42,380 nucleotides of DNA. It comes from Ardenticatenales bacterium. GTDB taxonomy: Bacteria; Chloroflexota; Anaerolineae; Promineifilales; UBA4811. Location: the NCBI GenBank assembly GCA_030593075.1, contig JAUVHW010000004.1:1-42380 (forward strand), written 5' to 3'. The notes below the pieces were generated by a model. That model worked only from the letters and a program-made list of their open reading frames with translations, did no database searches and was not told the origin of the DNA. Made by a program: the position numbers and the translations under genes. Shown here piece after piece: positions 1,140-15,382 of the stretch (its first letter is position 1; every line of letters begins with the position of its first letter).

Positions 1140-1383
1140 ACTTGGCGGTGATTCTTTGGGCTACGCAGTTGTCCCTGTAGCTGCGCAGTTCATTGCCATT
1201 CTCACCAGATCACGGTCTGCTGCGCCAGCCGGAAAGCTGTCTGCATTTGGAGTGTCGGATTGCGCTCTTTGGATTGGCTTGCACTCCAGTGTCTGGCGGG
1301 CCATCTGTGATCTCCATCAGCGTCTCTCCAATGATCGCGAGCTGCGCGGCGCTCCCAGGTCGGCCGCTCTCGCCGAGAGCCAA

Positions 1384-1600
1384 AGGGCACCGACCGTTTG
1401 CCACGTCTGCCCAGCCGGCTGTGCGGTGCTGGTCTGGACGGTCAGTGGCCGGGTGGTCAAGATCGAGGGGAACCCGGCCGCCCCTCAATCAGGGGCCAAC
1501 CTTGCCCCCGCGATGGGGTGGGCGACTTGGCCCCAAGGCAGCACATCGACGCCGAGGAACCGGCTTGTGACGGGATCCTGTACCCCTTGACAAGGGCGTT
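1384..1600 (+). pseudogene. Relic of a molybdopterin oxidoreductase N-terminus
   Basis: This fills most of the 541-base gap between the cytochrome and the first FeS gene. Frame 1 encodes APTVCHVCPAGCAVLVW and then GRVVKIEGNP. This matches the [4Fe-4S]-binding N-terminus of the intact oxidoreductase in this window (VPSVCGLCPAGCGILV, GRAVKIEGNP). After EGNP the similarity moves to frame 2 (PLNQG, then GRLGPKA, comparable with NNQGRLCPKGQA). It fades before 1600, where stop codons and frame changes follow. No TAT signal, start codon or catalytic domain remains. It is best read as a decayed copy of the catalytic-subunit gene that once headed the FeS/NrfD module starting at 1645. The bases from 1140 to 1383 show no supportable gene. 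Confidence 0.7.
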
Positions 1601-1644: not shown

Positions 1645-2373
1645 ATGCCCCGCTGGGGAATGGTCATAGACCTGGACAAATGTACGGCCTGTCAGGCTTG
1701 CACGGTGGCCTGTCTGGCCGAGAACAACGTCCCCTGGGCTGAACCGGAGGAGGCGGCTCTAGGGCGGGCTATTTTCTGGCAGGACGTGATAACCGACGTG
1801 GAGGGTGAGTATCCCCGCGTCCGGGCTCGTTTCACTCCGCGTCCGTGCCAGCATTGCGAGGAGCCACCCTGCGTCAAGGTCTGTCCGGTAAGGGCTACCT
1901 ACAAAGACGAAGAAGGGCTGGTCCTCCAGAGGTACGAGAGGTGCATCGGTTGCCGGTATTGCGCCGTCGCCTGCCCGTATGGCGTGCGCTACTTTAACTG
2001 GTACGAGCCCCAATGGCCCGAGCCACTTGACCAGTTATTGAATCCAGATGAGGGCCCCCCACCTGAGACCCGTGGGGGGCGATCCGGCCCGGAGATCAGG
2101 CCCAAGGGGATCGTGGAGAAGTGCACCTTCTGCGTTCACCGGCTGGAGAAGGCCAGGCACGAGGCCGAAGAAGCGGGCAAGGACCTGACCGACGAAGAGC
2201 TCGTCCTGCTGCCGGCGTGCAACCAGACCTGTCCGGCCTCGGCCCGCTACTTCGGCGACCTCGACGATCCCGAGAGCACCGTTTCCAGGCTGGCCGAAAG
2301 CTCGCGGGCCTTCAAGTTGCTGGAGGATCTGGGGACCGAGCCCAAAGTGATCTACTTGAAGGCAGGCGGCTAG
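1645..2373 (+). CDS. Four-cluster ferredoxin-type FeS subunit, copy 1 (NrfC/PsrB/DmsB family)
   Basis: Electron-transfer subunit of 242 residues that should wire a molybdopterin-type catalytic subunit to an NrfD quinone-reactive membrane protein. Four cysteine groups are visible: C13TACQACTVAC, CQHCEEPPCVKVCP, CIGCRYCAVACP and CTFC with a later CNQTCP, as expected for four [4Fe-4S] clusters. There is no signal peptide, so it is either cytoplasmic or co-exported with a TAT partner. GGAGG lies 7 bases before the ATG. The NrfD gene follows after one base. The protein is a close paralogue of the product at 6413-7138: nearly identical first 35 residues, the same cysteine pattern and the same ending (LEDLGTEPKVIYLK). 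Its own catalytic partner gene seems to be the relic just upstream, so it may now share the oxidoreductase encoded at 3887. Confidence 0.93.
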   Translation: MPRWGMVIDLDKCTACQACTVACLAENNVPWAEPEEAALGRAIFWQDVITDVEGEYPRVRARFTPRPCQHCEEPPCVKVCPVRATYKDEEGLVLQRYERCIGCRYCAVACPYGVRYFNWYEPQWPEPLDQLLNPDEGPPPETRGGRSGPEIRPKGIVEKCTFCVHRLEKARHEAEEAGKDLTDEELVLLPACNQTCPASARYFGDLDDPESTVSRLAESSRAFKLLEDLGTEPKVIYLKAGG

Positions 2374-2374
2374 C

Positions 2375-3724
2375 ATGCGATATGAGGGTCCCAGAGAGGA
2401 CGCAGCCTTGTTCCAGCCAATCGTGCACACGGGCTGGAGGTTCTATGTGCTGCTGGCGGCCTTGGTGATCGTCGTGATCTGGGGCGTTTCAGCCTATTAT
2501 CGGCAGTTGAGTCTGGGACTGGGCGTGACAGGCATGAACCGGCCGGTCTTCATGGGAGTGTACATCGTCAACTTTGTGTTCTTTATCGGCCTGAGCCACG
2601 CCGGCACCCTGATCTCCGCCATCCTGCGCATCGTGGGGGCCGAGTGGCGACGGCCCTTCACTCGCGCGGCCGAGGCCGTCACCCTTTTCAGTCTACCCTT
2701 CGGCGCGGGGAGCATAATCATTGACCTCGGGCGGCCAGATCGCCTACTTAATGTGATCCAATATGGCAGTTTCCGATCGCCCATCTTGTGGGACGTGACC
2801 GCCGTCTCTCTGTACCTGCTGTCCAGCCTCTTCTACTTCTACTTTGCGTTGATCCCGGACGTCGCCATGTGCCGCGATCGCCTCCAGGACGTAAGCACGT
2901 TCCGCAAGAGGTTGTATGAGTTGTTGGCCCTGGGCTGGACCGGCAGCGGGCAGCAGTATCGTCGCCTGAACGTCGTGATGAACATCATGGCCCTGTGGCT
3001 GACCATGCTGGTGGTCACGGTGCACACGGTGGTGTCGTGGATCTTTGGCATGACAATTGTCCCTGGGTGGCACACGGCCATCATCGGACCTTACTTCCTG
3101 GTGGGGGCTATCTTTGCGGGTGCTGCAGCGCTGATCATCATCGCGGCCATCCTGCGCAAGGCCTATCACTTGGAGAACTATATCAAGCCGGTGCACTTTC
3201 GGGCTTTGTCCAGCTTCGTGTTGGCTTTGTCCCTGGCCTGGTTTTACTTCACCGTGGCCGAGTTCATGACTGTCTACTACGGGGACGAACCGGCTCACAT
3301 GGTCGTCTTCAACGCCAAATTCTGGGAGGAGTTTGCTTCGGCCTTCTGGCTCACGGTGGTGCTGTGCTTCGTGGTTCCAGTGGTGATCCTCGGCAACCCT
3401 TTCACCCGCACCATCACCGGGGCGGTGATAGCGAGCGTGGGCATCAATGTGGGCATGTGGCTGGAACGGTACACGGTCGTTGTGCCCTCCCTGACTCGGC
3501 CGCGGCTGCCCTATGGTATCGGGGTCTACCGGCCCACCTGGGAGGAATGGGCTATCACGGCCGGCTGTTTTGCGCTCTTTGCCCTCTTGTTTGCTCTGTT
3601 CACCAAGGTTGTCCCGGTGATCGCCGTGTGGGAGGTTCACGAGGCCAAAGAGCTCGCCATACCGGAGGCCGTCGAACGGCTCAAGTCCTACTTCCCAGGT
3701 ACCGTGTCAGCAACCCGGGAGTAG
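2375..3724 (+). CDS. NrfD/PsrC-family integral membrane subunit, copy 1
   Basis: Polytopic membrane protein of 449 residues with about nine or ten hydrophobic helices. It is the quinone-interacting subunit of complex iron-sulfur molybdoenzymes and related complexes (family knowledge: PsrC, ActC/ActF, QrcD). A short cytoplasmic N-terminus leads into FYVLLAALVIVVIWGVSAYY. The segment GVYIVNFVFFIGLSHAGTL is typical of the family, and the C-terminus is soluble. The start follows the FeS stop codon after a single base, so the two are translationally linked. A paralogue with matching length and motifs lies at 9168-10514 (448 residues). Confidence 0.92.
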   Translation: MRYEGPREDAALFQPIVHTGWRFYVLLAALVIVVIWGVSAYYRQLSLGLGVTGMNRPVFMGVYIVNFVFFIGLSHAGTLISAILRIVGAEWRRPFTRAAEAVTLFSLPFGAGSIIIDLGRPDRLLNVIQYGSFRSPILWDVTAVSLYLLSSLFYFYFALIPDVAMCRDRLQDVSTFRKRLYELLALGWTGSGQQYRRLNVVMNIMALWLTMLVVTVHTVVSWIFGMTIVPGWHTAIIGPYFLVGAIFAGAAALIIIAAILRKAYHLENYIKPVHFRALSSFVLALSLAWFYFTVAEFMTVYYGDEPAHMVVFNAKFWEEFASAFWLTVVLCFVVPVVILGNPFTRTITGAVIASVGINVGMWLERYTVVVPSLTRPRLPYGIGVYRPTWEEWAITAGCFALFALLFALFTKVVPVIAVWEVHEAKELAIPEAVERLKSYFPGTVSATRE

Positions 3725-3748
3725 GTGGGGTAGAAGGAGAGAGTCTGT

Positions 3749-3847
3749 ATGGCGGAAGGAGGGATCATCGTCTTGACCGCTGTGGGAATCGTCTTTCTGG
3801 CATTCAGCGCAATGCTGTTTTGGATGACAAGGCCAGACGGTGAATAA
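3749..3847 (+). CDS. 32-residue single-helix membrane peptide after NrfD copy 1
   Basis: Too short for the ORF track. ATG at 3749 with GGAG about 10 bases upstream; it encodes MAEGGIIVLTAVGIVFLAFS, then a few more hydrophobic residues and a polar tail TRPDGE before TAA. This gives one predicted transmembrane helix of about 20 residues. It sits 24 bases after NrfD copy 1 and 39 bases before the oxidoreductase gene. A second small one-helix ORF follows NrfD copy 2 in the same relative position, which argues that both are real. A role as a small accessory or stabilising subunit of the membrane complex is inference; I do not recognise a named family. Confidence 0.65.
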   Translation: MAEGGIIVLTAVGIVFLAFSAMLFWMTRPDGE

Positions 3848-3886
3848 TACCCGTATCGTCAGTCCGAATTGCGGGAGTTCATTTCG

Positions 3887-6313
3887 ATGACGAAACTCAG
3901 CAGGCGTCGTTTTCTCAAGTTGGCCGGCGCTGGTGCCGGTGCGATGGGACTGTACAAGCTCGGTCTGGAGGAAGCCGTCCAGGAGACCTTTGCCCAGAGC
4001 CAGAGAGGGCAGGAGCCAGAGCGCGAGGAAGTGCGGGTACCCAGCGTTTGCGGGCTGTGCCCGGCGGGCTGTGGAATCCTGGTCAGGGTCATTGAGGGGC
4101 GGGCGGTCAAGATCGAGGGCAACCCCCTGAACCCCAACAATCAGGGCCGGCTCTGCCCCAAGGGACAGGCTGGCTTGCAGCTGCTCTATAACCCCGACCG
4201 CATCAAGGGACCGCTCCGTAGGGTGGGCGAAAGGGGGAGTGGCGAATGGGAATCCGTTTCCTGGGATAAAGCCCTTGGTCTGGTGGCTGAGAAGCTGAAG
4301 GAGATGCGCGGCGAGGGTCAGCCGCACAGCCTGGTCTTCATGCATGGCGCCAAGCCGGGCTTGATACACAACCTCATTGCCAGGTTTGGCCAGGCCTTTG
4401 GCACACCGAACGTGGTAGAGGTGCCAAGCTCCACCGCCAGCGAAAGCGCCTCTTTGGTTCACTACCTGATGCAGGGCTGGAGGGCTCCCAGCGGGTACGA
4501 CTGGACAAACACCAACTACGTTCTGAGCTTCGGGAGTGCCTTCCTGGAATCCCGCCAACCGATTGTCAAGATGCTGCAGGCCTACAGCCGCTTGCGGAGA
4601 GGCCGTCCAGACCACAGGAGCAGGATCGTGCAGGTGGAGAGCCGCTTCTCCGTCACTGCGGCCAAGGCGGATGAGTGGATCCCGATCGAACCAGGCACGG
4701 AGGGAGCCCTGGCCCTGAGCATGGCCCGCGTTATCGTCGAAGAGGGACTCTACGACAGGGACTTTATCGAGAACCACACCTTCGGTTTCGAGGATTGGAT
4801 AGACGAGGATGGCAGGGAGCACATAGGGCTCAAGACCCTGGTACTGAGAAGTTACTCGCCGAGGGCGGTGGCAGCAGTAGTGGGCGTCCCGGTAGAGACC
4901 ATCCGGCGGATAGCGCGTGAGTTTGCCGTCACCAGGCCGGCCGTTGCCCTTGGCGACGTGAGCTGGCAGACCAACGGTCTCTTCAGCCAGATGGCGATCC
5001 ACGCGCTGAACGCCCTGGTGGGTTCCATAGATGTCCCCGGTGGGATCATCAGGCAGGAGGACCCACCTTTCGCCCCGTGGCCCTTGACAGTGGAGGATAG
5101 CGTAACGAGTCAGGGGCTGGCTATGCCCCGCCTGGACCATGCCGGTACCAGGAAGTATCCTCTGGCCGACGGGGTCTACGAAGCCTTGCCGGAGAGCATC
5201 CTGGCCGATGATCCCTACCCGGTCAACGCCATCTTCCTGTACCAGGCCAACCCCCTCTTCCACAGTCCCGAGCCAGATTGGTTCTACCGAGCTTTCCAGC
5301 GGGTTCCCTTGATCATCAGCTTCTCCTCTTTTGTGGACGACAGCACTTCGTATTCCGACCTGGTCCTGCCCGACCATACCTACCTGGAGGGATGGAGCGA
5401 CGATGTCCTCGTGCCCAGCCTAGGCTATCCTGTCCTGGGGCTGGGGCAACCCGTGGTTCAGCCGCTGTACGACACAAAGAACACAGGCGATGTGCTCATC
5501 GAGCTGGCCCAAGAGTTGGGCGGTACAGTAGCCGAATCCTTCCCCTGGCAGAGCTTTGAGGGACTGCTGCGCTTCCGGTTGAGGGACATCTTTGAGGCCG
5601 GCCGGGGCTCCATCGTGACCGATACCTTCGACCAGTTCTGGGACGAATTCCAAGAGAGGGGGGTGTGGTCTGCTCCGCCGTATCGTTTCGGGGACTGGGA
5701 ACGGGTGCTAGCCACTCCCTCGGGCAAGTTCGAGTTCTACTCACAGAATCTAGAGCACACTCTCGAAGCAGTGACCGCGAGAGAGGCGGCTGAGAAGGGC
5801 ACGACGGCCGAGGAAGAGATGGAAAAGATGCTCCAGGAGCTGGGGCTTCAAGCCCGGGGCGATGAACTACATGTGCCCCATTACGAGTTCCCGAGGTGGG
5901 TGGGGGAGGAGACCGAGTATCCTTTCCACCTCAACGTCTACGAGTTGATGTCCCTCCTTGACGGCCGACTGGCGAACTTGCCCTGGTTGCAGGAGATAGC
6001 CGGCTTGCACATCAAGGAAATGTGGAGCAACTGGGTGGAGATCAACCCCGAGACGGCGAAGGAGCGGGGCATCGCCGATGGAGACCTGGTGTGGGTCGAG
6101 TCACTCGTGGGCAGGATACAGGCCAAAGCCCGGCTCTATCCTGGGGCCATGCCGGAGGTGGTCAACATGCCCCTGGGCCAGGGTCACATGGCCCACGGCC
6201 GCTGGGCGAAGGGCCGAGGAGCGAATCCTAAGCGGATCATCGGCAATGAATTTGACTATCTGGGTGGGCTGGCCACGTGGTCATCCACGCGCGTGAGGAT
6301 CTACAAGGCATAA
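3887..6313 (+). CDS. TAT-exported molybdopterin oxidoreductase-type subunit
   Basis: Large subunit of a complex iron-sulfur molybdoenzyme (808 residues). I chose the ATG at 3887 over the TTG at 3869 because it places the twin-arginine signal SRRRFLKLAGAGAGAMG at the extreme N-terminus, so the protein is exported folded. Cys55, Cys58, Cys62 and Cys90 (CGLCPAGC, LCPKG) form the proximal [4Fe-4S] site. Middle and C-terminal segments such as NALVGSIDVPGG, YSDLVLPDHTYLEGW and MPLGQGHMAHGRW fit the bis-pterin cofactor domains. Where many relatives carry a cysteine ligand to molybdenum I see SSTASESASLV and no Cys, so substrate and even metal occupancy are uncertain. The FeS, NrfD and multihaem neighbours make a quinone-linked complex likely, comparable in parts list to Qrc or Psr. 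The substrate is not identifiable from sequence. Confidence 0.88.
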   Translation: MTKLSRRRFLKLAGAGAGAMGLYKLGLEEAVQETFAQSQRGQEPEREEVRVPSVCGLCPAGCGILVRVIEGRAVKIEGNPLNPNNQGRLCPKGQAGLQLLYNPDRIKGPLRRVGERGSGEWESVSWDKALGLVAEKLKEMRGEGQPHSLVFMHGAKPGLIHNLIARFGQAFGTPNVVEVPSSTASESASLVHYLMQGWRAPSGYDWTNTNYVLSFGSAFLESRQPIVKMLQAYSRLRRGRPDHRSRIVQVESRFSVTAAKADEWIPIEPGTEGALALSMARVIVEEGLYDRDFIENHTFGFEDWIDEDGREHIGLKTLVLRSYSPRAVAAVVGVPVETIRRIAREFAVTRPAVALGDVSWQTNGLFSQMAIHALNALVGSIDVPGGIIRQEDPPFAPWPLTVEDSVTSQGLAMPRLDHAGTRKYPLADGVYEALPESILADDPYPVNAIFLYQANPLFHSPEPDWFYRAFQRVPLIISFSSFVDDSTSYSDLVLPDHTYLEGWSDDVLVPSLGYPVLGLGQPVVQPLYDTKNTGDVLIELAQELGGTVAESFPWQSFEGLLRFRLRDIFEAGRGSIVTDTFDQFWDEFQERGVWSAPPYRFGDWERVLATPSGKFEFYSQNLEHTLEAVTAREAAEKGTTAEEEMEKMLQELGLQARGDELHVPHYEFPRWVGEETEYPFHLNVYELMSLLDGRLANLPWLQEIAGLHIKEMWSNWVEINPETAKERGIADGDLVWVESLVGRIQAKARLYPGAMPEVVNMPLGQGHMAHGRWAKGRGANPKRIIGNEFDYLGGLATWSSTRVRIYKA

Positions 6314-6412
6314 ATACCAAAAGAAGAGCCGACGAAAAAGCCATCGCCCCCCTTGTGTTGAAGGGACACCAAGATTCCTGAGACCTCTGACTACTGGCTG
6401 AGGAGATTGCCA

Positions 6413-7138
6413 ATGCCCCGATGGGGAATGATCATTGACCTGGACAAATGTACAGCTTGCCAGGCTTGCACTGTGGCCTGTCTGGCCGAGAACAACGTGC
6501 CCTTTGCTGGGCCAGAAGAGACCAGTATGGGCCGGGCCATCTTGTGGCATGAGGTCATCGGCGGGATAGAAGGGGAGTATCCCGATCTGTGGGCCACCTT
6601 CATACCACGACCCTGCATGCATTGCGACAACCCGCCCTGCATCAAGGTCTGTCCGGTAGGAGCGACTTACAGACGGGAAGACGGCCTGGTGATGCAGGAC
6701 TATGATCAGTGCATTGGGTGCCGGATGTGTATCGTTGCTTGCCCATACGAAGTGCGGTATTTCAATTGGCGTAACCCCCAGTGGCCTGAGCCCATGGACC
6801 AATACCTAAATCCAGACCAAGGCCCGCCCCAGCCAACCGGAGGTCGGGGAGGGCCGGATGTCAGGCCCCGCGGCGTAGTGGAGAAGTGTACCTTTTGCGT
6901 GCATCGCCTGGAAAAGGCTGAACGCAAGGCCCAGCAAGAGTATAGAGAGATGAGCGAACAGGAGTTGACCCTTCTGCCCGCCTGCAACCAAACCTGTCCT
7001 GCCTCAGCCAGGTATTTCGGCGACCTGGACAACCCCAAGAGCACCGTCTCCCGACTGGCCAGAGGTGCGCGGGCGTTCAGGCTGCTGGAAGACCTTGGCA
7101 CCGAGCCAAAGGTGATTTACTTGAAGGAGGGACGGTAG
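6413..7138 (+). CDS. Four-cluster ferredoxin-type FeS subunit, copy 2
   Basis: FeS subunit of 241 residues, paralogous to the product at 1645-2373. I chose the ATG at 6413 over the TTG at 6407 because the product then starts MPRWGMIIDLDKCTACQAC like copy 1, with AGGAG at 6401-6405. The four cysteine groups are conserved: CTACQACTVAC, CMHCDNPPCIKVCP, CIGCRMCIVACP, and CTFC with CNQTCP. The gene follows the oxidoreductase by 99 bases with no obvious terminator and precedes the 17-haem cytochrome gene, so it is the natural electron relay between them and NrfD copy 2. No export signal is visible. It differs from copy 1 mainly in the variable middle and in the loop after CTFCVHRLEKA. Confidence 0.93.
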   Translation: MPRWGMIIDLDKCTACQACTVACLAENNVPFAGPEETSMGRAILWHEVIGGIEGEYPDLWATFIPRPCMHCDNPPCIKVCPVGATYRREDGLVMQDYDQCIGCRMCIVACPYEVRYFNWRNPQWPEPMDQYLNPDQGPPQPTGGRGGPDVRPRGVVEKCTFCVHRLEKAERKAQQEYREMSEQELTLLPACNQTCPASARYFGDLDNPKSTVSRLARGARAFRLLEDLGTEPKVIYLKEGR

Positions 7139-7210
7139 CGTAAACCACCAGCCCATGTCCAGAAGATGCCATCATGTACCAGGGCGGGTAGGTATCCGAC
7201 GAGGAGTATC

Positions 7211-9166
7211 ATGAAACTTTATCATCAACTGTGTGTTGCGCTGGCGTTGCCTCTGATCATCCTCCTTTTTGTGTCCATGGCCAGCGCCCAACCGCCCGTC
7301 CCTCATTCCCCAGAAGGGCGGGATGATTGTCTAGCCTGCCATCAGACCGGGGTGGGAGGCGCGCCACGAGTGGTGACCGACCATGTGGGGCGCACCAATG
7401 AAACTTGTGGCCAGTGCCACGCCCCTCTGGGCGTTGAACCGGCGGCCGTGCCGGCTATTCCGCACTCAACAGAAGGGCGGGAAGCCTGCCTGGCCTGTCA
7501 CGAGGCCGGGCTGGCAGGAGCGTCCAAGATCCCCGGTGACCATGCGGAACGCACTGACGAAACCTGTAACCAGTGTCACGTCGCGGCCGGCGCTACACCA
7601 GCCCCTGTGTCCCCCGGCGCCCTGGCACTGCCGTTGATCCCCCACCCGCTGGAGGGACAGGAAGCTTGCCTGGCCTGCCACGAGACCGGGGTGCGAGGAG
7701 CGCCCAAGCTCCCCGATGATCATGCAGGACGGACCGGCGAGACCTGCCGCCAGTGCCACCTCGCGGCCGGTGTCACGCCGGCCCCAGTACCCCCCATCCC
7801 GCACCAGGTGGAAGGGCGGGAAGCTTGTCTGGCCTGCCACGCTGGCTGGGTGGGGCAGGCGCCCCTGATTCCGGATGATCACGCCGAGCGCCTGAACGAA
7901 GTCTGCCAATCGTGTCACCAACCAGCGGTGCTCATCCTGGCCACGCCTACTGTGCCGCCGCTGCCAACTCCCATTGTGCATCCCGTGTCTCCGGCAAAGG
8001 ATTCCTGCCTGGAATGTCATCGCACGCTGGGTGGAAAGTATGCGGACATAACCTATCAGTGGGAGGGGAGCTACTTTGCCGCCTTTGGCGTGACTTGCGC
8101 CGATTGTCACGGCGGCGACCCGGGAGCGGATGACATCGTGGCTGCCAAGTCACCAGAGGCCGGCTACATCGGCGTGGCCGACAGAGCCGACATTCCGGCT
8201 CTATGTGGTTCGTGTCACACCGATGCTGAGAGGATGTACCCCCATGGGCTGCCGACCGATCAACTGAGCGAGTATGAGAAGAGCGTGCACGGACAGCTCC
8301 TGGCCCAGGGGGATGTGAACGTGCCCACTTGCTTCGATTGCCACGGCGGTCATGCTACCCTGCAGAGCGATGATCCCAGATCGAGCGTCTTTCCCTCGAA
8401 CCTGCCGGCTACCTGCGCCCGGTGTCACGCTGACGAGGAGCGCATGAAGCCCTACGGCATTCCCACTGACCAGTACGATCTGTACCAGAGAAGCGTTCAC
8501 GGACGCGCTCTGTTGATATATGGGAACACCGATGCTCCCTCCTGCGTGACCTGCCACAGTAGCCACGGAGCTACCCTTCCCGGCCAGACCGAGGTGATAG
8601 ATGTGTGCGGGCAATGTCATTCCCTGTCGGCGAGGTATTACCTGACAGGCGGGCACCGCCGTGGCATGCAGGAGGGCTCTGAGGCACCGCGTTGCATCAC
8701 CTGTCACGGTCGTTACGATGTGGAGCTTGCCAGCCTGGAGCTGTATGTCGGTGATGAGCCACGCCACTGCGGTTCTTGCCACGCCTCAGGCTCGCTGGAG
8801 AGCGCGGCAATTCAGATCATGTACCAGACCCTGGCCGGGGCAGAACAGGCTCTCCAGGCAGCGGAGCAGGCGGTGGATGAAGCCCGCGCTGCGGAGCTAG
8901 GCCTTGACGCCCAGGAGTCCCGGTTGAAAACGGCCAGAACCAGGTTCGCTGAAGCAGTGGCGGCGCAGCACGAGGTGCAACTGGAGACCATTGAGGAAAA
9001 GACCGCTGAGGTCGAGTCCATCAGTGTTGAGGTACAGGAGGCAGTAGAGAACGCCATTGCCGCAAGGGAGCGGGAGCGATTGCTACCGGGGAAAATAGCT
9101 GCTGTCTTCCTCGCGCTGGGTGGCGCTGTTCTCATTGTGCTCAGGCGACGGGCACGGGTTGGCTGA
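7211..9166 (+). CDS. 17-haem c-type cytochrome with coiled coil and C-terminal membrane anchor
   Basis: Large extracytoplasmic electron conduit of 651 residues. I chose the ATG at 7211 because GAGGAG lies 5 bases upstream and a clean signal peptide follows (LALPLIILLFVSMASAQ). I count 17 CxxCH motifs. The first eight sit in four tandem repeats of about 50 residues, each with a CLACH and a second CxxCH (CGQCH, CNQCH, CRQCH or CQSCH). The next nine lie in a less regular domain that contains SVHGQ and SVHGR segments, typical of haem-ligand histidines in NapC/NrfH-like and OmcA-like cytochromes. After the last haem (CGSCHASGS) comes an alanine- and glutamate-rich coiled coil of about 80 residues, then one helix (IAAVFLALGGAVLIVL) and RRRARVG, a stop-transfer anchor. 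The NrfD gene begins one base after its stop codon. Confidence 0.92.
   Translation: MKLYHQLCVALALPLIILLFVSMASAQPPVPHSPEGRDDCLACHQTGVGGAPRVVTDHVGRTNETCGQCHAPLGVEPAAVPAIPHSTEGREACLACHEAGLAGASKIPGDHAERTDETCNQCHVAAGATPAPVSPGALALPLIPHPLEGQEACLACHETGVRGAPKLPDDHAGRTGETCRQCHLAAGVTPAPVPPIPHQVEGREACLACHAGWVGQAPLIPDDHAERLNEVCQSCHQPAVLILATPTVPPLPTPIVHPVSPAKDSCLECHRTLGGKYADITYQWEGSYFAAFGVTCADCHGGDPGADDIVAAKSPEAGYIGVADRADIPALCGSCHTDAERMYPHGLPTDQLSEYEKSVHGQLLAQGDVNVPTCFDCHGGHATLQSDDPRSSVFPSNLPATCARCHADEERMKPYGIPTDQYDLYQRSVHGRALLIYGNTDAPSCVTCHSSHGATLPGQTEVIDVCGQCHSLSARYYLTGGHRRGMQEGSEAPRCITCHGRYDVELASLELYVGDEPRHCGSCHASGSLESAAIQIMYQTLAGAEQALQAAEQAVDEARAAELGLDAQESRLKTARTRFAEAVAAQHEVQLETIEEKTAEVESISVEVQEAVENAIAARERERLLPGKIAAVFLALGGAVLIVLRRRARVG
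7298..7930 (+). repeat. Four tandem ~50-residue di-haem repeats inside the cytochrome
   Basis: Each unit reads roughly IPH-x4-EGREACLACH, then about 20 residues with a DHAER or DHAGR element, then C-x-x-CH and an Ala/Pro-rich linker (TPAPVPP). Units start near VPHSPEGR, IPHSTEGR, IPHPLEGQ and IPHQVEGR. The nucleotide similarity is still high, notably between units 2 and 3, which points to recent tandem duplication within the gene. Confidence 0.85.
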
Positions 9167-9167
9167 C

Positions 9168-10514
9168 ATGGCGCGCGTTATTGCTGAGCAAGACATGATA
9201 TTGCTCCAACCTATAATGCGCACTGGCCTGCGATTCTATCTGCTAGTGGCGGCCTTGCTCGCGGTCATTACCTGGGGCTTCTCCACCTACTATCGCCAGT
9301 TGACCGAAGGGCTGTGGGTGACCGGCTTGAACAGACCCGTTGTCTGGGGATTGTACATCATCAATTTCGTGTTTTTTATCGGGATCAGCTATGCCGGGAC
9401 GTTGACCTCGGCTGTCCTACGGGTCACCCAGGCGGAGTGGCGGAGGCCCATCACTCGTGTGGCCGAGGCGATCACCCTCTTTGCTCTTCTCCTCGGAGCG
9501 TCTCAGGTCATCATTGATCTGGGCCGGCCGGACAGGATGATCAAGTTGATCACGCATGGCCGTCTTCAATCGCCGCTGCTCTGGGACGTGGGTACGCTCG
9601 CCATGTATATGTTGGGCAGCCTGACCTACCTCTATCTACCGCTGATCCCAGATGTGGCCATTCTGCGAGACCACCTGGGAACGCAAGTCCCGGCCTGGCG
9701 GAGGAGGCTGTATCAGATTCTCTCCCTGGGCTGGCAGGGCAACGCTGAGCAGCGGCGGCGGCTGGAGAAGGGTATCAACATCATGGCCGTCTTTATCATA
9801 CCGGTGGCCGTTTTGGCTCACGCTGTTGTGTCGTGGATCTTCGGAATGACCCTGCGACCCATGTGGCACAGCACCATCCTGGGGCCTTACTTCCTGCTGG
9901 GTGCTATCTTTTCGGGCACCGCCACCCTCGTTATCGCCATGACCATTATGCGCCAGGTGTTGCACCTGGAGGCGTATATCACGATCAAGCAATACAACTA
10001 CCTGGGACTGCTTCTGCTGGTTATGAGCCTTTTCTGGTTCTATTTCACCGGCGCAGAATACCTGACCACTTTCTACGGTGATCTCCCTGATGAAATGACG
10101 GTACTCCTGTCCAAGCTCGTTGGAGAGTTCAGCTGGCCCTTCTGGGCGATGATCCTGTGCAACTTTGTGGTGCCGGTGAGCATCTTGATCTGGAAGAGGG
10201 GACGGGGAGTAGTTGGCACTTTCATCTCCGGTGTAGCCATTAACATCGGGATGTGGCTGGAGCGATTCACTATCGTCGTACCCACCCTGACCCGACCACG
10301 GCTCACGTTCTATGGTATTGGAATCTACCGGCCGACTTTGACTGAATGGGGCCTCTTTGCCAGCTCGGCGGCCATGTTTGTCCTGCTGCTCGCGCTGTTC
10401 CTCAAGCTGTTCCCCGCCGTTTCCATCTGGGAGGTGGAGGAAGGCAGAGAGATAGTAGCAGCCAAACAAGCTGTGGCCAGCATAGCCGCTTCGTCCGAGG
10501 GACCTGTTCGCTAG
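9168..10514 (+). CDS. NrfD/PsrC-family integral membrane subunit, copy 2
   Basis: Quinone-interacting membrane subunit of 448 residues, paralogous to copy 1 at 2375-3724. The ATG at 9168, one base after the cytochrome stop codon, gives the same N-terminal architecture as copy 1: a short soluble leader (LLQPIMRTGLRFYLL), then about nine or ten helices. The ORF-track start at 9120 overlaps the cytochrome and is not needed. Shared motifs include GLYIINFVFFIGISYAGTL, HAVVSWIFGMT and NIGMWLERFTIVVPTLTRPR. The one-base gap to a membrane-anchored cytochrome suggests co-translational assembly. Confidence 0.92.
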   Translation: MARVIAEQDMILLQPIMRTGLRFYLLVAALLAVITWGFSTYYRQLTEGLWVTGLNRPVVWGLYIINFVFFIGISYAGTLTSAVLRVTQAEWRRPITRVAEAITLFALLLGASQVIIDLGRPDRMIKLITHGRLQSPLLWDVGTLAMYMLGSLTYLYLPLIPDVAILRDHLGTQVPAWRRRLYQILSLGWQGNAEQRRRLEKGINIMAVFIIPVAVLAHAVVSWIFGMTLRPMWHSTILGPYFLLGAIFSGTATLVIAMTIMRQVLHLEAYITIKQYNYLGLLLLVMSLFWFYFTGAEYLTTFYGDLPDEMTVLLSKLVGEFSWPFWAMILCNFVVPVSILIWKRGRGVVGTFISGVAINIGMWLERFTIVVPTLTRPRLTFYGIGIYRPTLTEWGLFASSAAMFVLLLALFLKLFPAVSIWEVEEGREIVAAKQAVASIAASSEGPVR

Positions 10515-10534
10515 ATTCGATTGAGTGGAATGAA

Positions 10535-10672
10535 ATGGGCGACCTGAGCATATTGGGCAAGATATTCACAGAGACTGGCTATGGCGGGGCCATCGTACTC
10601 ATCGCACTCTTAACCTGTCTTGCCTTCTACGGCTCCCTGATTGCCTGGATCGCACGAGGAAAGGAGGAATAG
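10535..10672 (+). CDS. 45-residue single-helix membrane peptide after NrfD copy 2
   Basis: Starts 20 bases after NrfD copy 2. MGDLSILGKIFTETGYGG leads into one hydrophobic helix (AIVLIALLTCLAFYGSLIAW), then a charged tail RGKEE. The ribosome site is weak (GAGTGGAATG). It occupies the same place as the 32-residue peptide behind NrfD copy 1, although the sequences are not obviously alike. Likely a small accessory membrane subunit (inference). I do not recognise a family. Confidence 0.65.
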   Translation: MGDLSILGKIFTETGYGGAIVLIALLTCLAFYGSLIAWIARGKEE

Positions 10673-10755: not shown

Positions 10756-11553
10756 ATGACGACTCTCTTTGAATTGCTTCCCTGGATTACGGTGGCCCTA
10801 GTGACAGCCCTGGTCTTCCTGGTTCCGGCCATCAAGATCGTACAGCAGTACGAACGCGGTGTGGTGCTGCGCCTCGGCAGACTAGTCGCCACCAGGGATC
10901 CCGGTTTCAACCTGATCATCCCCTACGTGGATCGGATGATCAAGGTTGACATGCGTACCCTGACCTGGGTCTTGAAGGAACGCCAGGAGATCATCACACG
11001 GGACAACGTGACCGTCCACGTGGATGCCGTGGTGTACTTTAACGTCTTTGATCCGGTGAAGGCTGTTCTCAACGTAGAAGACTACAAGACAGCCACCGAG
11101 CAGTTGGCGTTGACCACCCTGCGGAGCGTCCTGGGCCAATCGGATCTGGACGAACTCTTGGCGCATCGAGACCGGGTCAACGAGCGACTGCGGGAGATTA
11201 TTGACGAGCACACCGAGGAACCCTGGGGCGTCCGGGTCAGCCTGGTGGAGGTCAAGGATGCGTTGCTTCCCGAGGCCATGCAGCGGGCGATGGCCAGGCA
11301 GGCTGAGGCGGAGCGCGAGAAACGGGCGAAGATCATCCACGCTGAAGGTGAGTACGCGGCGGCTGAGACTCTGAAGCAGGCAGCAGACATCATCGCCGAA
11401 CAGCCGATCTCGTTGCAGCTCAGGTATCTCCAGGCCCTGGTCGAGATGGCCGGCGAGAGTGGCTCCACCATCATCCCCTTGCCCCTCGACTTGCTGGGCG
11501 GCATCGCGCAGGCCCTGAAGGGAGCGGGATCGCAGGGGGAAGGAAGCGAGTGA
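10756..11553 (+). CDS. Slipin / stomatin-like SPFH-domain membrane protein
   Basis: Protein of 265 residues with one N-terminal membrane helix (ITVALVTALVFLVPAIKIV), then an SPFH/band-7 domain starting QQYERGVVLRLGR and containing DPGFNLIIPYVDRM. A helical stretch rich in Ala, Glu and Arg follows (ARQAEAEREKRAKIIHAEGEY), typical of slipins and prohibitin-like scaffolds that oligomerise on the inner membrane. The C-terminus has the family motif SLQLRYLQALVEMAGE. A strong ribosome site, TAAGGAGGAAAC, precedes the ATG. It closes the respiratory cluster, 83 bases after the small peptide. A role in organising the membrane complexes is plausible but inferred. No NfeD partner gene is adjacent. Confidence 0.9.
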   Translation: MTTLFELLPWITVALVTALVFLVPAIKIVQQYERGVVLRLGRLVATRDPGFNLIIPYVDRMIKVDMRTLTWVLKERQEIITRDNVTVHVDAVVYFNVFDPVKAVLNVEDYKTATEQLALTTLRSVLGQSDLDELLAHRDRVNERLREIIDEHTEEPWGVRVSLVEVKDALLPEAMQRAMARQAEAEREKRAKIIHAEGEYAAAETLKQAADIIAEQPISLQLRYLQALVEMAGESGSTIIPLPLDLLGGIAQALKGAGSQGEGSE

Positions 11554-11928: not shown

Positions 11929-13839
11929 GTGGACCGCGAGTTGCCAGCACGCAGAAGATATCAGGTCGAGATTCCTACGCTCGATTACTACCGGCGCCAG
12001 ATCAAGTGCCAGTATGCCTGCCCGGTCAGGACCGACGCCCAGGGGTATGTGACAGCTATTGCCGAGGGCGACTACGAGCGGGCCTACCATATCGCCCGTG
12101 AGCCTAACCCCCTGGCTGGAGTGTGCGGGCGAGTCTGTACTGCGCTCTGTGAGGAGGAATGCCGGAGAGGTGCAATTGACGACTCGATAACCATTCGGGC
12201 ACTCAAGCGTTTTGCCCAGGAGAGGGGAGCAAGCGAGAGAGCAGAAGAGAAGGTGCCTCGTTCAGGCAAGCGAGTGGCCGTAATCGGCTCCGGGCCAGCG
12301 GGGCTAGCGGCCGCTCATGACCTGGCCCTCCTGGGGCATCAGGTCACCATATTCGAAGCCGCCGAGGCAGCAGGGGGGATGATGCGCCTGGGAATACCGG
12401 CCTATCGGCTGCCCAGAGACCTGCTGGACCGGGAAATACGGGCCATCCTAGAGTTGGGCGTGGACCTGCGGCTCAACACCCCTGTTGGTCCTGACCTATC
12501 CCTGTCCGATCTGCGTGCTCAAGGGTTCGAGACCATCTTCATCGCTCTGGGTGCACATAGAAGCCGCGATATGGCTATCGAGGGCGTCGAACTGGATGGG
12601 GTGCTGAGGGCGGTGGACTTCCTCTTGAACGCCAATTTGGGCTACAAGGTTGAGTTGGGCAAGAAGGTGCTGATTGTTGGTGCCGGAGGCGTGGCGTTTG
12701 ATGTGGCGCGCACTGCGCTCCGCAGGTTGGAGGATGTCGATGCTCTGAGCCAGGAAGAGAGAGACCGTATCCTGACTGCGGCTGGGGATGCTCTGCAGCA
12801 AATGGCGGGCCTTGGCGATGGCAGGGTAGAGGACTTGACCGCCGCCATAGATACGGCTCGCTGGGTTCTACGTCTGGGGGTCAGGGATGTGCACATGGTC
12901 TGCCTCGAATCGCAGCAGGAGATGCCGGCCGACGTACGGGAGATCACCGAAGCCCTCGAGGAAGGCATCCAGATACATACTCGGCTGGGCCCCAAGAGAA
13001 TCCTGGGCCGCGAGGGCAAGGTGGTCGGCCTGGAAACCATCGCGGCAGCCTCGGTCTTTGACAGCGAAGGGCGATTCAACCCCGTGTACATCCCCGATAC
13101 GGAGACGATCATCCAAGCGGACACGGTGATAATAGCCATTGGCCAAACCTCTGACCTCTCCTTCATCGGGGAGGGTAATGGCATCGAGACCACCGGGCGG
13201 GGAACGATCGTCGTTGATCCTGACACCCTGGCGACCACCGCGCCGGGGGTGTTTGCTGGCGGGGACGTGGTCTTTGGGCCCCGGGTGCTCATCGAGGCCA
13301 TAGCCGACGGGCGGAAGGCAGCCCGCGCCATTGACGACTACCTGCGGGGCAGACACTCCCCCTCCGTCTGGAGGGGGCACATGACGGTCATCCTACCCTA
13401 CTCCATGCCCGCTGGCTACGAGAAGCTCAAGTGGCAGCGCAGGGTACCAACTCTGCCTGTTGAGCGACGCATCGGTGTCGCTGAGGTGGAACTGGGATAC
13501 GCTGAGAGGGAGGCCACAGAGCAGGCAAAGCGTTGCCTCAGGTGCAGCGTGAACACCGTCTTCGACGGTGACGAGTGCATCCTGTGCGGCGGCTGTGTCG
13601 ATGTCTGTCCCGAGCGTTGCCTAAAGATGGTGCCGCTGGAGCTCCTAGCGGAGAACCCACACCTGGCGGCATTGGTGGCGGCTCGCTTCGGGCGTCCCCT
13701 GGCCGGGTTCCCCGACGCATTGGGCACAGCCATGATAAAGGACGAGACGCGCTGTATCCGCTGCGGGTTGTGTGCCAGTCGCTGCCCTACGGGAGCTATC
13801 ACCATGGAAGCACTGAGCTTGGTCGAGGAATACGTGTAG
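11929..13839 (+). CDS. GltD-like FAD/NAD(P)-dependent FeS oxidoreductase with C-terminal ferredoxin domain
   Basis: Flavoprotein of 636 residues related to the glutamate synthase small subunit (GltD) and NfnB. The N-terminus has the FeS domain of that family (CQYACPVRTDAQ, then GVCGRVCTALCEEECRRG). An FAD dinucleotide motif follows (VAVIGSGPAGLAAAHDL), then an NAD(P) motif (VLIVGAGGVAFDVARTAL) and the C-terminal FAD element (GVFAGGDVVFGPR). The last about 110 residues add a two-cluster ferredoxin (CILCGGCVDVCPERC and CIRCGLCASRCPTGAI). No glutamate synthase large subunit is nearby. The gene heads a cytochrome b/Rieske/cytochrome c operon, so it may feed NAD(P)H electrons into that complex or the quinone pool (inference). 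The GTG start at 11929 has no clear ribosome site, so the exact start is uncertain. Confidence 0.87.
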   Translation: MDRELPARRRYQVEIPTLDYYRRQIKCQYACPVRTDAQGYVTAIAEGDYERAYHIAREPNPLAGVCGRVCTALCEEECRRGAIDDSITIRALKRFAQERGASERAEEKVPRSGKRVAVIGSGPAGLAAAHDLALLGHQVTIFEAAEAAGGMMRLGIPAYRLPRDLLDREIRAILELGVDLRLNTPVGPDLSLSDLRAQGFETIFIALGAHRSRDMAIEGVELDGVLRAVDFLLNANLGYKVELGKKVLIVGAGGVAFDVARTALRRLEDVDALSQEERDRILTAAGDALQQMAGLGDGRVEDLTAAIDTARWVLRLGVRDVHMVCLESQQEMPADVREITEALEEGIQIHTRLGPKRILGREGKVVGLETIAAASVFDSEGRFNPVYIPDTETIIQADTVIIAIGQTSDLSFIGEGNGIETTGRGTIVVDPDTLATTAPGVFAGGDVVFGPRVLIEAIADGRKAARAIDDYLRGRHSPSVWRGHMTVILPYSMPAGYEKLKWQRRVPTLPVERRIGVAEVELGYAEREATEQAKRCLRCSVNTVFDGDECILCGGCVDVCPERCLKMVPLELLAENPHLAALVAARFGRPLAGFPDALGTAMIKDETRCIRCGLCASRCPTGAITMEALSLVEEYV

Positions 13840-13877
13840 CTATGCCGGGCTGGAGGCAGAGAGAGGGCGAGAAAGAG

Positions 13878-14639
13878 ATGAGTATGGCGGCGAACCTGCT
13901 CGACCGCCTCGTCCACGGGGTCACGAACTCTCGGGTGTGGCGCTCCTTCTTCCGCCACGGGCTGCCAGACAACGACCTCGATCGCTCGCTCACGATCACC
14001 AGCAACCTTTTCCTGCACCTGCACCCGGTTCGGGTGCGAAAGCACGGGTTGCGGCTGACCTACACCTGGGGGCTGGGCGGGATTAGCTTCTTTCTGTTTC
14101 TGGTGTTGGGCGTCACTGGGGGGCTGCTGATGTTTGAGTACGTCCCCTCGGTGGACCGGGCCTACGGTGACATCGTCCGCATTCAGACTAGCGTCCCCTT
14201 TGGGGCGCTGCTGCGTAACCTCCACCGCTGGTCGGCCGAGTTGATGGTGCTGACGGTGTTTCTGCATCTGTGCCGCGTTTTCTACACCGGGGCCTACAAG
14301 CCGCCCCGCGAGTTCAACTGGATCGTGGGGCTGGCGGCCGGCTTTCTCACCCTGGCCTTCAGTTACACTGGATATCTGTTGCCCTGGGATCAACTGGCCT
14401 ATTGGGGTATCACTGTGGGCAGCAACATCGCCGGCTACGTCCCACTGGTGGGCGATCAGGTTAGAGTTCTGCTGCTAGGCGGCCCGACGGCGGGGCAGCC
14501 AGCCCTCATCCGTTTCTACAACCTCCACGTCTTCGTCCTGTCGGCCAGCATGGCTGTCGTACTGGGAATCCACTTCTGGAGAGTGCGCAAGGACGGTGGC
14601 ATCTCAGGGCCACCGCCGGCTGAGGAGAAGCGCGAGTGA
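13878..14639 (+). CDS. Cytochrome b N-terminal half (b6-type) of a bc complex
   Basis: Di-haem quinol-oxidising subunit (253 residues from ATG 13878). In-frame alternatives at 13842 and 13884 cannot be excluded because no start has a strong ribosome site. After a soluble leader come helices with the cytochrome b signatures: GGISFFLFLVLGVTGGLLMF, the haem-ligand helix LLRNLHRWSAELMVLTVFLH, then SYTGYLLPWDQLAYW (Qo-site region). The last helix contains FYNLHVFVLSASMAVVLGIH. Paired histidines in the second and fourth helices fit two b haems. Its stop overlaps the start of the C-terminal subunit (TGATG), the split arrangement of cytochrome b6/subunit IV. Confidence 0.9.
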   Translation: MSMAANLLDRLVHGVTNSRVWRSFFRHGLPDNDLDRSLTITSNLFLHLHPVRVRKHGLRLTYTWGLGGISFFLFLVLGVTGGLLMFEYVPSVDRAYGDIVRIQTSVPFGALLRNLHRWSAELMVLTVFLHLCRVFYTGAYKPPREFNWIVGLAAGFLTLAFSYTGYLLPWDQLAYWGITVGSNIAGYVPLVGDQVRVLLLGGPTAGQPALIRFYNLHVFVLSASMAVVLGIHFWRVRKDGGISGPPPAEEKRE

Positions 14640-15382
14640 TGGACGAGAGGCAAGATCCCCAGATCTTCCCCGCTGATACGAGCAAAACGTACGGCCTGAT
14701 GGAGCTGGCCCGAGGGACCTCGCCTCTGGTGGCGAAAGAGCCTGAGGACACGGTGATGACCTTTCCCCACCTGGTCATCATTGAGGTCCTGGCCGCGCTG
14801 GCGGTGATGGTTCTGCTACTGATCCTTTCGGCGGTGCGCGACGCTCCGCTGGAGGAGGCCGCCAACCCTGATATTTCGCCAAGCCCGGCCAAGGCGGCCT
14901 GGTACCTGATGGGCATCCAGGAACTGATCCTGCACATGCACCCCACGTGGGGGGCCATCATAGTGCCTGGACTGGCAGGCCTGGCCCTGGCGGCCGTTCC
15001 GTACCTCGACCGCAGCCAGCAGGATGTGGGTCGGTGGTTTGCCGGCCCGCGGGGCAGGCGCATCGCCCTGTGCACCGCAGTGGGTACCCTACTTGTGGTC
15101 CCGGCGCTGGTGGCGCTGGACAGCCTAAAGGGAGTGCGGAGCGTGTGGCCCGGCGTTCCCCCCCTTGTGGCAGGAATTGTCATCCCGTTGGGGACCCTGC
15201 TCGTGCTGCTGGCAGTGCTCTATGCCGTCCTGCGCCAGTTCAGAGCTTCGGTACGAGAAATGATGATCGCCTACTTTACCATCTTGGTCGTGGGCCTCGT
15301 CGTCCTGACCCTGGCGATGCTGCTGTTCCGGGGGCCAGGCATGCAGCTCTATTGGCCGTGGGCCATGCCGGCCGGACATTAA
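14639..15382 (+). CDS. Cytochrome b C-terminal subunit (subunit IV-like)
   Basis: 247-residue membrane protein completing the split cytochrome b. ATG 14639 overlaps the previous stop as TGATG; the track start is the GTG just before it. After a soluble N-terminus with FPADTSKTYGLMEL comes a helix, then NPDISPSPAKAAWYLMGIQE, the equivalent of the Qo-loop PEWY region, here with AAWY in place of PEWY. HMHPTWGAIIVPGLAGLAL follows, then additional C-terminal helices. Variation in the PEWY motif is known among menaquinol-using bc complexes, so menaquinone is the likely substrate (inference). Confidence 0.87.
   Translation: MDERQDPQIFPADTSKTYGLMELARGTSPLVAKEPEDTVMTFPHLVIIEVLAALAVMVLLLILSAVRDAPLEEAANPDISPSPAKAAWYLMGIQELILHMHPTWGAIIVPGLAGLALAAVPYLDRSQQDVGRWFAGPRGRRIALCTAVGTLLVVPALVALDSLKGVRSVWPGVPPLVAGIVIPLGTLLVLLAVLYAVLRQFRASVREMMIAYFTILVVGLVVLTLAMLLFRGPGMQLYWPWAMPAGH

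Follow-up and report, generated by a model that had tools for sequence, protein, structure and literature searches.

Tandem FeS-NrfD modules with a 17-haem cytochrome in an Ardenticatenales bacterium: candidate split quinone:multihaem-cytochrome oxidoreductases

The window analyzed here is a stretch of 42,380 nucleotides at the start of contig JAUVHW010000004.1 (assembly GCA_030593075.1) from an Ardenticatenales bacterium (Chloroflexota, Anaerolineae). Between positions 1645 and 10672 it carries two genes for iron-sulfur (FeS) proteins, two for NrfD-type membrane subunits, one for a large subunit resembling molybdoenzymes (Mo-like) and one for a 17-haem cytochrome. Our preferred interpretation, to which we give a probability of roughly 0.55, is that these genes form two tandem operons of split quinone:multihaem-cytochrome oxidoreductases related to Alternative Complex III (ACIII) and Qrc. 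The first module (beta) lacks a Mo-like gene, the second (alpha) is complete, and the Mo-like protein would act as scaffold and electron relay. The source is a metagenome-assembled genome (MAG) with 93% completeness, and the functional claims are based on sequence and structure models; the trees were built from short searches and their deep branching is uncertain.

Gene order and the upstream remnant

The features of the locus are as follows (pLDDT, predicted local distance difference test; SH-aLRT, Shimodaira-Hasegawa-like approximate likelihood ratio test; Tat, twin-arginine translocation).

1375..1509, + strand: remnant of the N-terminus of a second, decayed Mo-like (ActB1/ArrA-like) gene; 53% identity over 45 amino acids to the intact Mo-like protein of the window (tblastn, E 1.8e-13 in a 1.7-kb target)
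1645..2373, + strand: FeS1, four-cluster ferredoxin-like protein (ActB2/QrcC/ArrB-like) of the beta module; Pfam Fer4_11 7e-17, 16 Cys, CPY motif, QrcC model 260 bits against a cut-off of 400
2375..3724, + strand: NrfD1, ActC-like membrane subunit of the beta clade (11 rows, SH-aLRT 100); Pfam NrfD 4e-26; D117, S135, D140 and R365 kept
3749..3847, + strand: peptide 1, 32 amino acids, one transmembrane helix, at the conserved position after NrfD, without the GxGG/RWI motif
3887..6313, + strand: Mo-like subunit (ArrA/ActB1-like), 808 amino acids; Tat motif RRRFLK, N-terminal 4Fe-4S motif kept, Mo-ligand Cys absent; AlphaFold model with pLDDT 90.5, closest in fold to ArrA 6cz7 (TM-score 0.86)
4427..4447, + strand: region coding for the Mo-ligand loop (residues 181-187, SSTASES); no Cys, low local identity to the relative L035, low pLDDT
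6413..7138, + strand: FeS2, four-cluster subunit of the alpha module; Pfam Fer4_11 6.7e-19, 16 Cys, 92% identity to L035, best PDB match ActB 6f0k_B at 1e-51
7166..9166, + strand: 17-haem cytochrome c; 17 CxxCH, signal peptide, four di-haem repeats and nine further haems, helical hairpin, C-terminal membrane helix
9168..10514, + strand: NrfD2, ActC-like membrane subunit of the alpha clade; Pfam NrfD 6.5e-31, 88% identity to L035; D117, S135, D140 and R366 kept
10535..10672, + strand: peptide 2, 45 amino acids, one transmembrane helix, family-wide small subunit; GxGG...RWI pattern as in the post-NrfD peptides of many relatives
10756..11553, + strand: SPFH/HflK-like protein, a recurrent neighbour of the modules; HflK model 9.2e-26, homologues of 60-66% identity beside modules in L042, L043, L045, L090, L096, L102, L109 and L139

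The genes from 1645 to 10672 are tightly packed on the (+) strand in the order FeS1, NrfD1, peptide 1, Mo-like subunit, FeS2, 17-haem cytochrome, NrfD2 and peptide 2, and the open reading frames together with their Pfam matches confirmed the order described in an original prediction made from the sequence alone. A check of other genomes, which that prediction had proposed, revealed homologues of the FeS, NrfD, Mo-like and cytochrome genes together in dozens of genomes; therefore, chance is no explanation of the layout. Searching the literature for a corresponding set of genes in Anaerolineae gave no result.

The original prediction overlooked the Mo-like remnant at 1375-1509, which lies immediately 5' of FeS1. 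Its fourth cluster Cys is out of frame, a stop codon follows at about position 1590, and tblastn found no further Mo-like homology between the remnant and FeS1, so that roughly 700 downstream codons are gone. A mere sequencing-error frameshift as explanation for this first Mo-like gene was rejected, because only about 135 nt separate the remnant from FeS1 and these codons are therefore missing in any frame. The position of the remnant directly upstream argues that FeS1-NrfD1 formerly had a large subunit of its own.

Phylogenetic analysis of 80 NrfD proteins placed NrfD1 in the beta clade, apart from NrfD2 in the alpha clade (36 rows, SH-aLRT 92), and both are old clades whose members are found again as tandem operons elsewhere in Chloroflexota. 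One genome (G234:C22) contains two complete tandem operons, beta and alpha, each with its own Mo-like gene, and in another (G290) an alpha and a beta operon, again each with its own Mo-like gene, are split over two contigs. The nearest relative, Anaerolineales E26_bin7 (G048, locus L075; Mo-like subunit 78-79% identical), has the order Mo-like, FeS, 17-haem cytochrome and alpha NrfD, and beta is absent. Beta without alpha was found in at least three genomes (G005, G116, G019) and alpha without beta in many, while both occur together as Mo-FeS-alpha-FeS-beta-SPFH (L102) or Mo-FeS-alpha-beta-SPFH (L045/L099). Because of the remnant, the tandem operons in G234 and G290 and the solitary alpha module in G048, the two-module layout reads as facultative, i.e. 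as tandem operons of which the first is without its large subunit. By the same observations the proposal of two quinone sites per catalytic subunit in a single complex is not supported, and the ratio of two NrfD to one intact Mo-like subunit refers to genes counted in the DNA and not to a stoichiometry measured on protein.

A recent tandem duplication of the whole FeS-NrfD pair was rejected for the NrfD genes, which are only 53% identical and fall into separate clades. FeS1 and FeS2 are 72.6% identical and form one small subclade (support 94), and it is possible that the FeS gene alone was duplicated or converted. In the nearest relative, an IS66-like transposase remnant and a decahaem-cytochrome fragment, both judged by eye, lie 5' of the module (L075, 1-1430), and therefore this neighbourhood has been rearranged.

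Quinone site, large subunit and cytochrome

The comparison with ACIII and Qrc made in the original prediction is well founded. A profile of the two NrfD proteins matched ActC over its full length (2e-103, 6f0k_C) and ActF only partially and weakly (3e-18), and FeS2 matched ActB at 1e-51. In both NrfD proteins D117 and S135 are 18 residues apart, as are D120 and S138 in QrcD, and D140 (corresponding to ActC D169) and the gate Arg are kept; Y147 of NrfD2 is found at the position expected for QrcD Y150. Both FeS proteins contain 16 Cys, and the Tyr of their CPY motif is the counterpart of QrcC Y113. The roles of these residues in QrcD, ActC and QrcC have been described (PMC13059093; PMC8076601), and ActF is without such a quinone site (PMC5928083). 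In line with the earlier claim of two quinone-reactive subunits, this signature suggests that both modules are able to react with quinone. The only other NrfD matches in the genome are on contigs C65 and C334.

The large subunit has ArrA (1.7e-89) and PsrA (9.5e-69) as closest sequence neighbours, and the closest solved structures are ArrA 6cz7 and PsrA 2vpw. Its N-terminal 4Fe-4S motif (C-x2-C-x3-C-x27-C) is intact. The Mo-ligand position is Ala or Thr when aligned to ArrA and PsrA, and becomes Ser when the alignment pairs the SST motif with the nearest relative; the register may be off by one or two residues, and in each case the residue is not Cys, as had been noted before and as is the case in non-catalytic relatives. 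Across 100 family sequences the Cys is present in six and absent in 94, with the 4Fe-4S motif kept. The most common residue is Asn (35 of 100; a conserved SLN motif in Chloroflexota), followed by Ser, Gly, Asp, Ala, Glu and others. Next to the ligand position, the window's protein has also lost the His that belongs to the active site of ArrA. When compared with the 78-79% identical relative L035, local identity of the ligand loop is in the 12th percentile and the alignment contains an indel, whereas five comparisons among Cys-bearing relatives gave the 64th to 94th percentile. A structure-based check with AlphaFold pointed to the same region, as block 181-190 has a pLDDT of 68, the lowest in the folded core. 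We read the low loop identity with its indel and the weak block of the model as a sign of relaxed constraint, i.e. no catalysis, and assume that the Mo-like subunit is probably a scaffold and electron relay rather than an enzyme.

In the family tree the Mo-like proteins, the QrcB-like proteins and the ActB proteins, split or fused, make up a single assemblage, and the QrcB-like proteins of Desulfobacterota are located inside it (FastTree, with long branches and an unsure deep order). A link between ActB and ArrA has been made earlier (PMC10100899). Three further observations concern this family. About 35 Mo-like proteins of a Chloroflexota-centred clade (L041-L054, L090-L128, L139, L153) carry a conserved Asn (SLNIEA) in place of the ligand Cys together with an intact 4Fe-4S motif, and as the loop is conserved this Asn is probably functional. 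Six proteins of Desulfobacterota and Myxococcota (L141, L145, L147, L148, L151, L154; 770-850 amino acids) score above the NCBI QrcB equivalog cut-off; this model may be too broad, because proteins with a 4Fe-4S motif pass it, yet characterized QrcB has been described as free of cofactors. Finally, family members from records named Halieaceae, Rhodobacteraceae and Euryarchaeota (L139, L153, L084) are close to those of Chloroflexota, which could be due to binning error or recent transfer.

The predicted 17 haems and four di-haem repeats of the cytochrome were recovered as 17 CxxCH motifs with four pairs (55/81, 108/134, 168/194, 221/247) at a constant spacing of 26 residues. The coiled coil and membrane tail are matched by helices 544-575, 581-638 and 644-665 of a low-confidence AlphaFold model (overall pLDDT 46; residues 561-590 near 78-80). 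No sequence relative of the protein was found in the PDB. The family is present in 32 of 396 genomes of the class, and in 19 of 20 other loci inspected it is located immediately 3' of a cytochrome b gene. It adjoins Mo-FeS-NrfD genes in five genomes (the window's, G048, G049, G157 and G005). Co-occurrence with the Mo-like family in 297 genomes was observed 13 times against 2.8 expected (Fisher 9e-8, kinship ignored). The 17-haem cytochrome is best described as an electron partner that is interchangeable between quinone enzymes. Many relatives also encode a single-transmembrane peptide 3' of NrfD with a shared GxGG...RWI pattern. Peptide 2 fits this pattern, and peptide 1 occupies the same position and belongs to the same length class but lacks the motif; in other phyla a longer membrane protein occupies the position. 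Much of the family thus has a conserved small membrane peptide after NrfD, which is probably unannotated.

Comparison with known systems and alternative explanations

The statement that the arrangement does not match any known layout was too strong, as split ActB1/ActB2 proteins with the CX2CX3CX27C motif and duplicated act operons have been published (PMC4643136; PMC9386147). With a Mo-fold A, a four-cluster B and an NrfD C subunit in one operon, the locus falls within the complex iron-sulfur molybdoenzyme (CISM) superfamily, and it belongs to the known split ACIII/Qrc/Arr kind, both NrfD proteins being ActC-like, unlike ActF. New are the combination of split subunits with a 17-haem partner within the operon, the tandem of alpha and beta NrfD and the loss of one large subunit.

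The closest resemblance is to the split form of ACIII known from iron oxidizers, Nitrospirales and Chloroflexota, which has a Mo-fold ActB1-like protein with CX2CX3CX27C (PMC4643136), a separate four-cluster ActB2, an ActC-type NrfD with quinone-site residues and a c-type cytochrome as partner. Unlike ACIII, a 17-haem anchored cytochrome is inserted between FeS2 and NrfD2, and there are two ActC-type NrfD proteins. A canonical ACIII in this genome was rejected: ActD (PF11821) had no match in the whole 93% complete genome, whereas the control Thermus composti matched, and NrfD matches are confined to the locus, C65 and C334. An ActF-type NrfD without quinone site was not found at the locus, where both NrfD proteins keep the site and have full-length matches only to the ActC type; ActF is missing from some published forms of ACIII as well (PMC12342949). 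No five-haem gene corresponding to a pentahaem ActA beside ActB is present in the operon on this contig, which starts at window position 1; the 17-haem cytochrome is found instead.

QrcABCD shares the non-catalytic Mo-fold subunit, the four-cluster FeS protein, NrfD and a multihaem cytochrome, but QrcB has been described as free of cofactors whereas the Cys of the N-terminal cluster (FS0) are kept here, the cytochrome has 17 haems and not the six of QrcA, and the gene order is different. ArrABC and PsrABC have in common with the locus the A-B-C logic, the location on the P-side indicated by the Tat signal and the nearest structures; the missing Cys ligand, the degenerate loop and the additional cytochrome set them apart. 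The NCBIfam equivalog models for ArrA (332 of 1600 bits) and PhsA (349 of 694 bits, representing PsrABC/PhsABC) remained below their cut-offs, with no Cys at the aligned ligand position, as did DsrO (176 of 200 bits) and DsrP (105-112 of 350 bits) of DsrMKJOP. For NrfCD modules with multihaem cytochromes in Melioribacter (PMC3534657) and MBNT15 (PMC9386147), electron donation from quinol without a Mo subunit has been proposed, and MBNT15 also has an operon with duplicated actABCD (PMC9386147). Like these, the FeS-NrfD pair of the beta module may work without a Mo subunit; unlike them, it stands between a decayed Mo-like gene on its 5' side and a full Mo-like module on its 3' side. The cytochrome b-multihaem operons of Chloroflexota use the same 17-haem family with its C-terminal anchor, attached to cytochrome b there and to an FeS-NrfD quinone enzyme here.

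Taken as tandem ACIII/Qrc-type operons, the locus most likely encodes a quinol:multihaem-cytochrome oxidoreductase for anaerobic electron export. Menaquinol would bind in NrfD2 on the outer face of the membrane, adjacent to the FeS2 cluster that bears the Tyr, and electrons would pass along the FeS clusters to the 17-haem cytochrome. From there, standing on its helical stalk and held by its C-terminal membrane anchor, the cytochrome would hand them to further surface cytochromes or to an extracellular acceptor, with the Mo-like protein serving mainly as scaffold and relay. The beta module, with no large subunit of its own, would most likely serve as a further NrfCD unit that reacts with quinone and supplies multihaem cytochromes with electrons. 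We prefer quinol oxidation towards surface cytochromes over quinone reduction as best guess because several multihaem cytochromes surround the locus. No haem-copper oxidase was found in the 93% complete genome. The same genome has a 12-haem cytochrome-FeS-NrfD operon without a Mo-like gene (L070, G000:C65, 1449-4813), and Anaerolineales are known for many large multihaem cytochromes in the absence of the porin-cytochrome route (PMC7399161).

The main rival is the reverse, Qrc-like direction: multihaem cytochromes would receive electrons from a periplasmic formate dehydrogenase or a donor outside the cell and reduce menaquinone via FeS-NrfD, with proton uptake from the cytoplasm. We regard it as possible on the grounds that QrcC is the best-scoring NCBIfam model for both FeS proteins, that the Qrc-essential Ser138 and Y113 have counterparts, with Y147 of NrfD2 at the place of QrcD Y150, and that QrcB-like proteins of Desulfobacterota share the family tree. 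In addition, the only other match to a molybdenum-bis(pyranopterin guanine dinucleotide) (Mo-bisPGD) protein in the genome is a single fragment with an in-frame TGA (contig C405). However, the operon has neither a tetrahaem cytochrome c3 nor a hexahaem QrcA-type subunit, the cut-offs for QrcB (315 of 440 bits), QrcC (260-261 of 400) and QrcD (37-42 of 570) are all missed, and elsewhere the cytochrome family accompanies cytochrome b genes, which usually serve in quinol oxidation.

It seems unlikely that all subunits assemble into one heteromeric complex, in which the two FeS proteins and alpha and beta NrfD, a pair comparable to ActC/ActF but with two active sites, share the Mo-like scaffold and the 17-haem cytochrome. 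The tight packing with no strong terminator between the modules, the quinone-site residues in both NrfD proteins and the single intact Mo-like gene beside alpha and beta in L102 and L045/L099 would fit such an assembly; against it stand the single module of most relatives, the separate Mo-like genes in G234 and G290 and a promoter-like site (10 of 12 positions) at 1587-1615 just before FeS1, though such sites are expected by chance. An extension of this idea, in which two quinone sites at different potentials together with the non-catalytic ArrA-like scaffold and the 17-haem wire make a Q-cycle-like or electron-splitting quinol:cytochrome reductase of an anaerobe, appears improbable. The same holds for a working molybdo- or tungstoenzyme, Ser-ligated or without a protein ligand, acting as reductase or dehydrogenase of a substrate like its arsenate or polysulfide reductase relatives: catalytic ArrA and PsrA are indeed the closest structures, the four FS0 Cys are retained and Ser is found at the ligand position in L035, L036, L037 and L082, but the divergent and poorly modelled loop, the lost His and the ArrA and PhsA scores far below cut-off make it doubtful.

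Several points weigh against tandem operons of quinol-oxidizing modules with a scaffold subunit. Gene neighbourhood is no proof of a complex, and Qrc works in the reverse direction; the fragment on C405, possibly a selenocysteine-containing formate dehydrogenase, could feed a Qrc-like complex. Close relatives in the same clade possess the Cys (L038, L076-L078, L084, L115), and loss of the Cys alone would be compatible with Mo binding or catalysis, with Ser as possible ligand in this protein; arsenite oxidase is functional with its Mo held without a protein ligand. FeS1 groups with FeS2 and not with its counterparts in most beta operons; the beta module thus has no simple history, and its FeS gene may have a separate one. 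In addition, a frameshift at about 180-200 lies to the left of 1645 in a MAG, where an assembly error is possible.

Neighbouring genes and implications

Downstream of the module, the SPFH protein is followed by a GltD-like flavoprotein with ferredoxin domain, cytochrome b, a subunit-IV-like protein and tetrahaem and decahaem cytochromes. The flavoprotein has two ferredoxin clusters and is located immediately 5' of cytochrome b and the subunit-IV-like protein (11929-15382); the three may form an NAD(P)H-linked cytochrome b complex. At the other end, positions 1-1103 contain an open reading frame for a multihaem cytochrome with seven CxxCH in frame 3, one more before these and a collagen-like GPQGPPGEPGAQGPPGADG start. 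The frameshift near 180-200 makes it either an assembly error or a young pseudogene, and the 5' part of the gene lies beyond the contig. Homologues are found beside the module in L036/L079 and L082.

Our analysis indicates that FeS-NrfD quinone modules, Mo-fold scaffolds and multihaem cytochromes are separately exchangeable parts. One 17-haem family is the partner of cytochrome b in most Chloroflexota and of FeS-NrfD here, and the large subunit may lose its metal ligand or vanish while the quinone part stays intact. The Mo-like family lies as a grade between the catalytic ArrA-like enzymes and the cofactor-poor ActB and QrcB, and sequence and biochemical data can therefore be used to test how ACIII and Qrc originated. 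Furthermore, the locus provides concrete candidates for electron export in Anaerolineales, a group without the porin-cytochrome route (PMC7399161).

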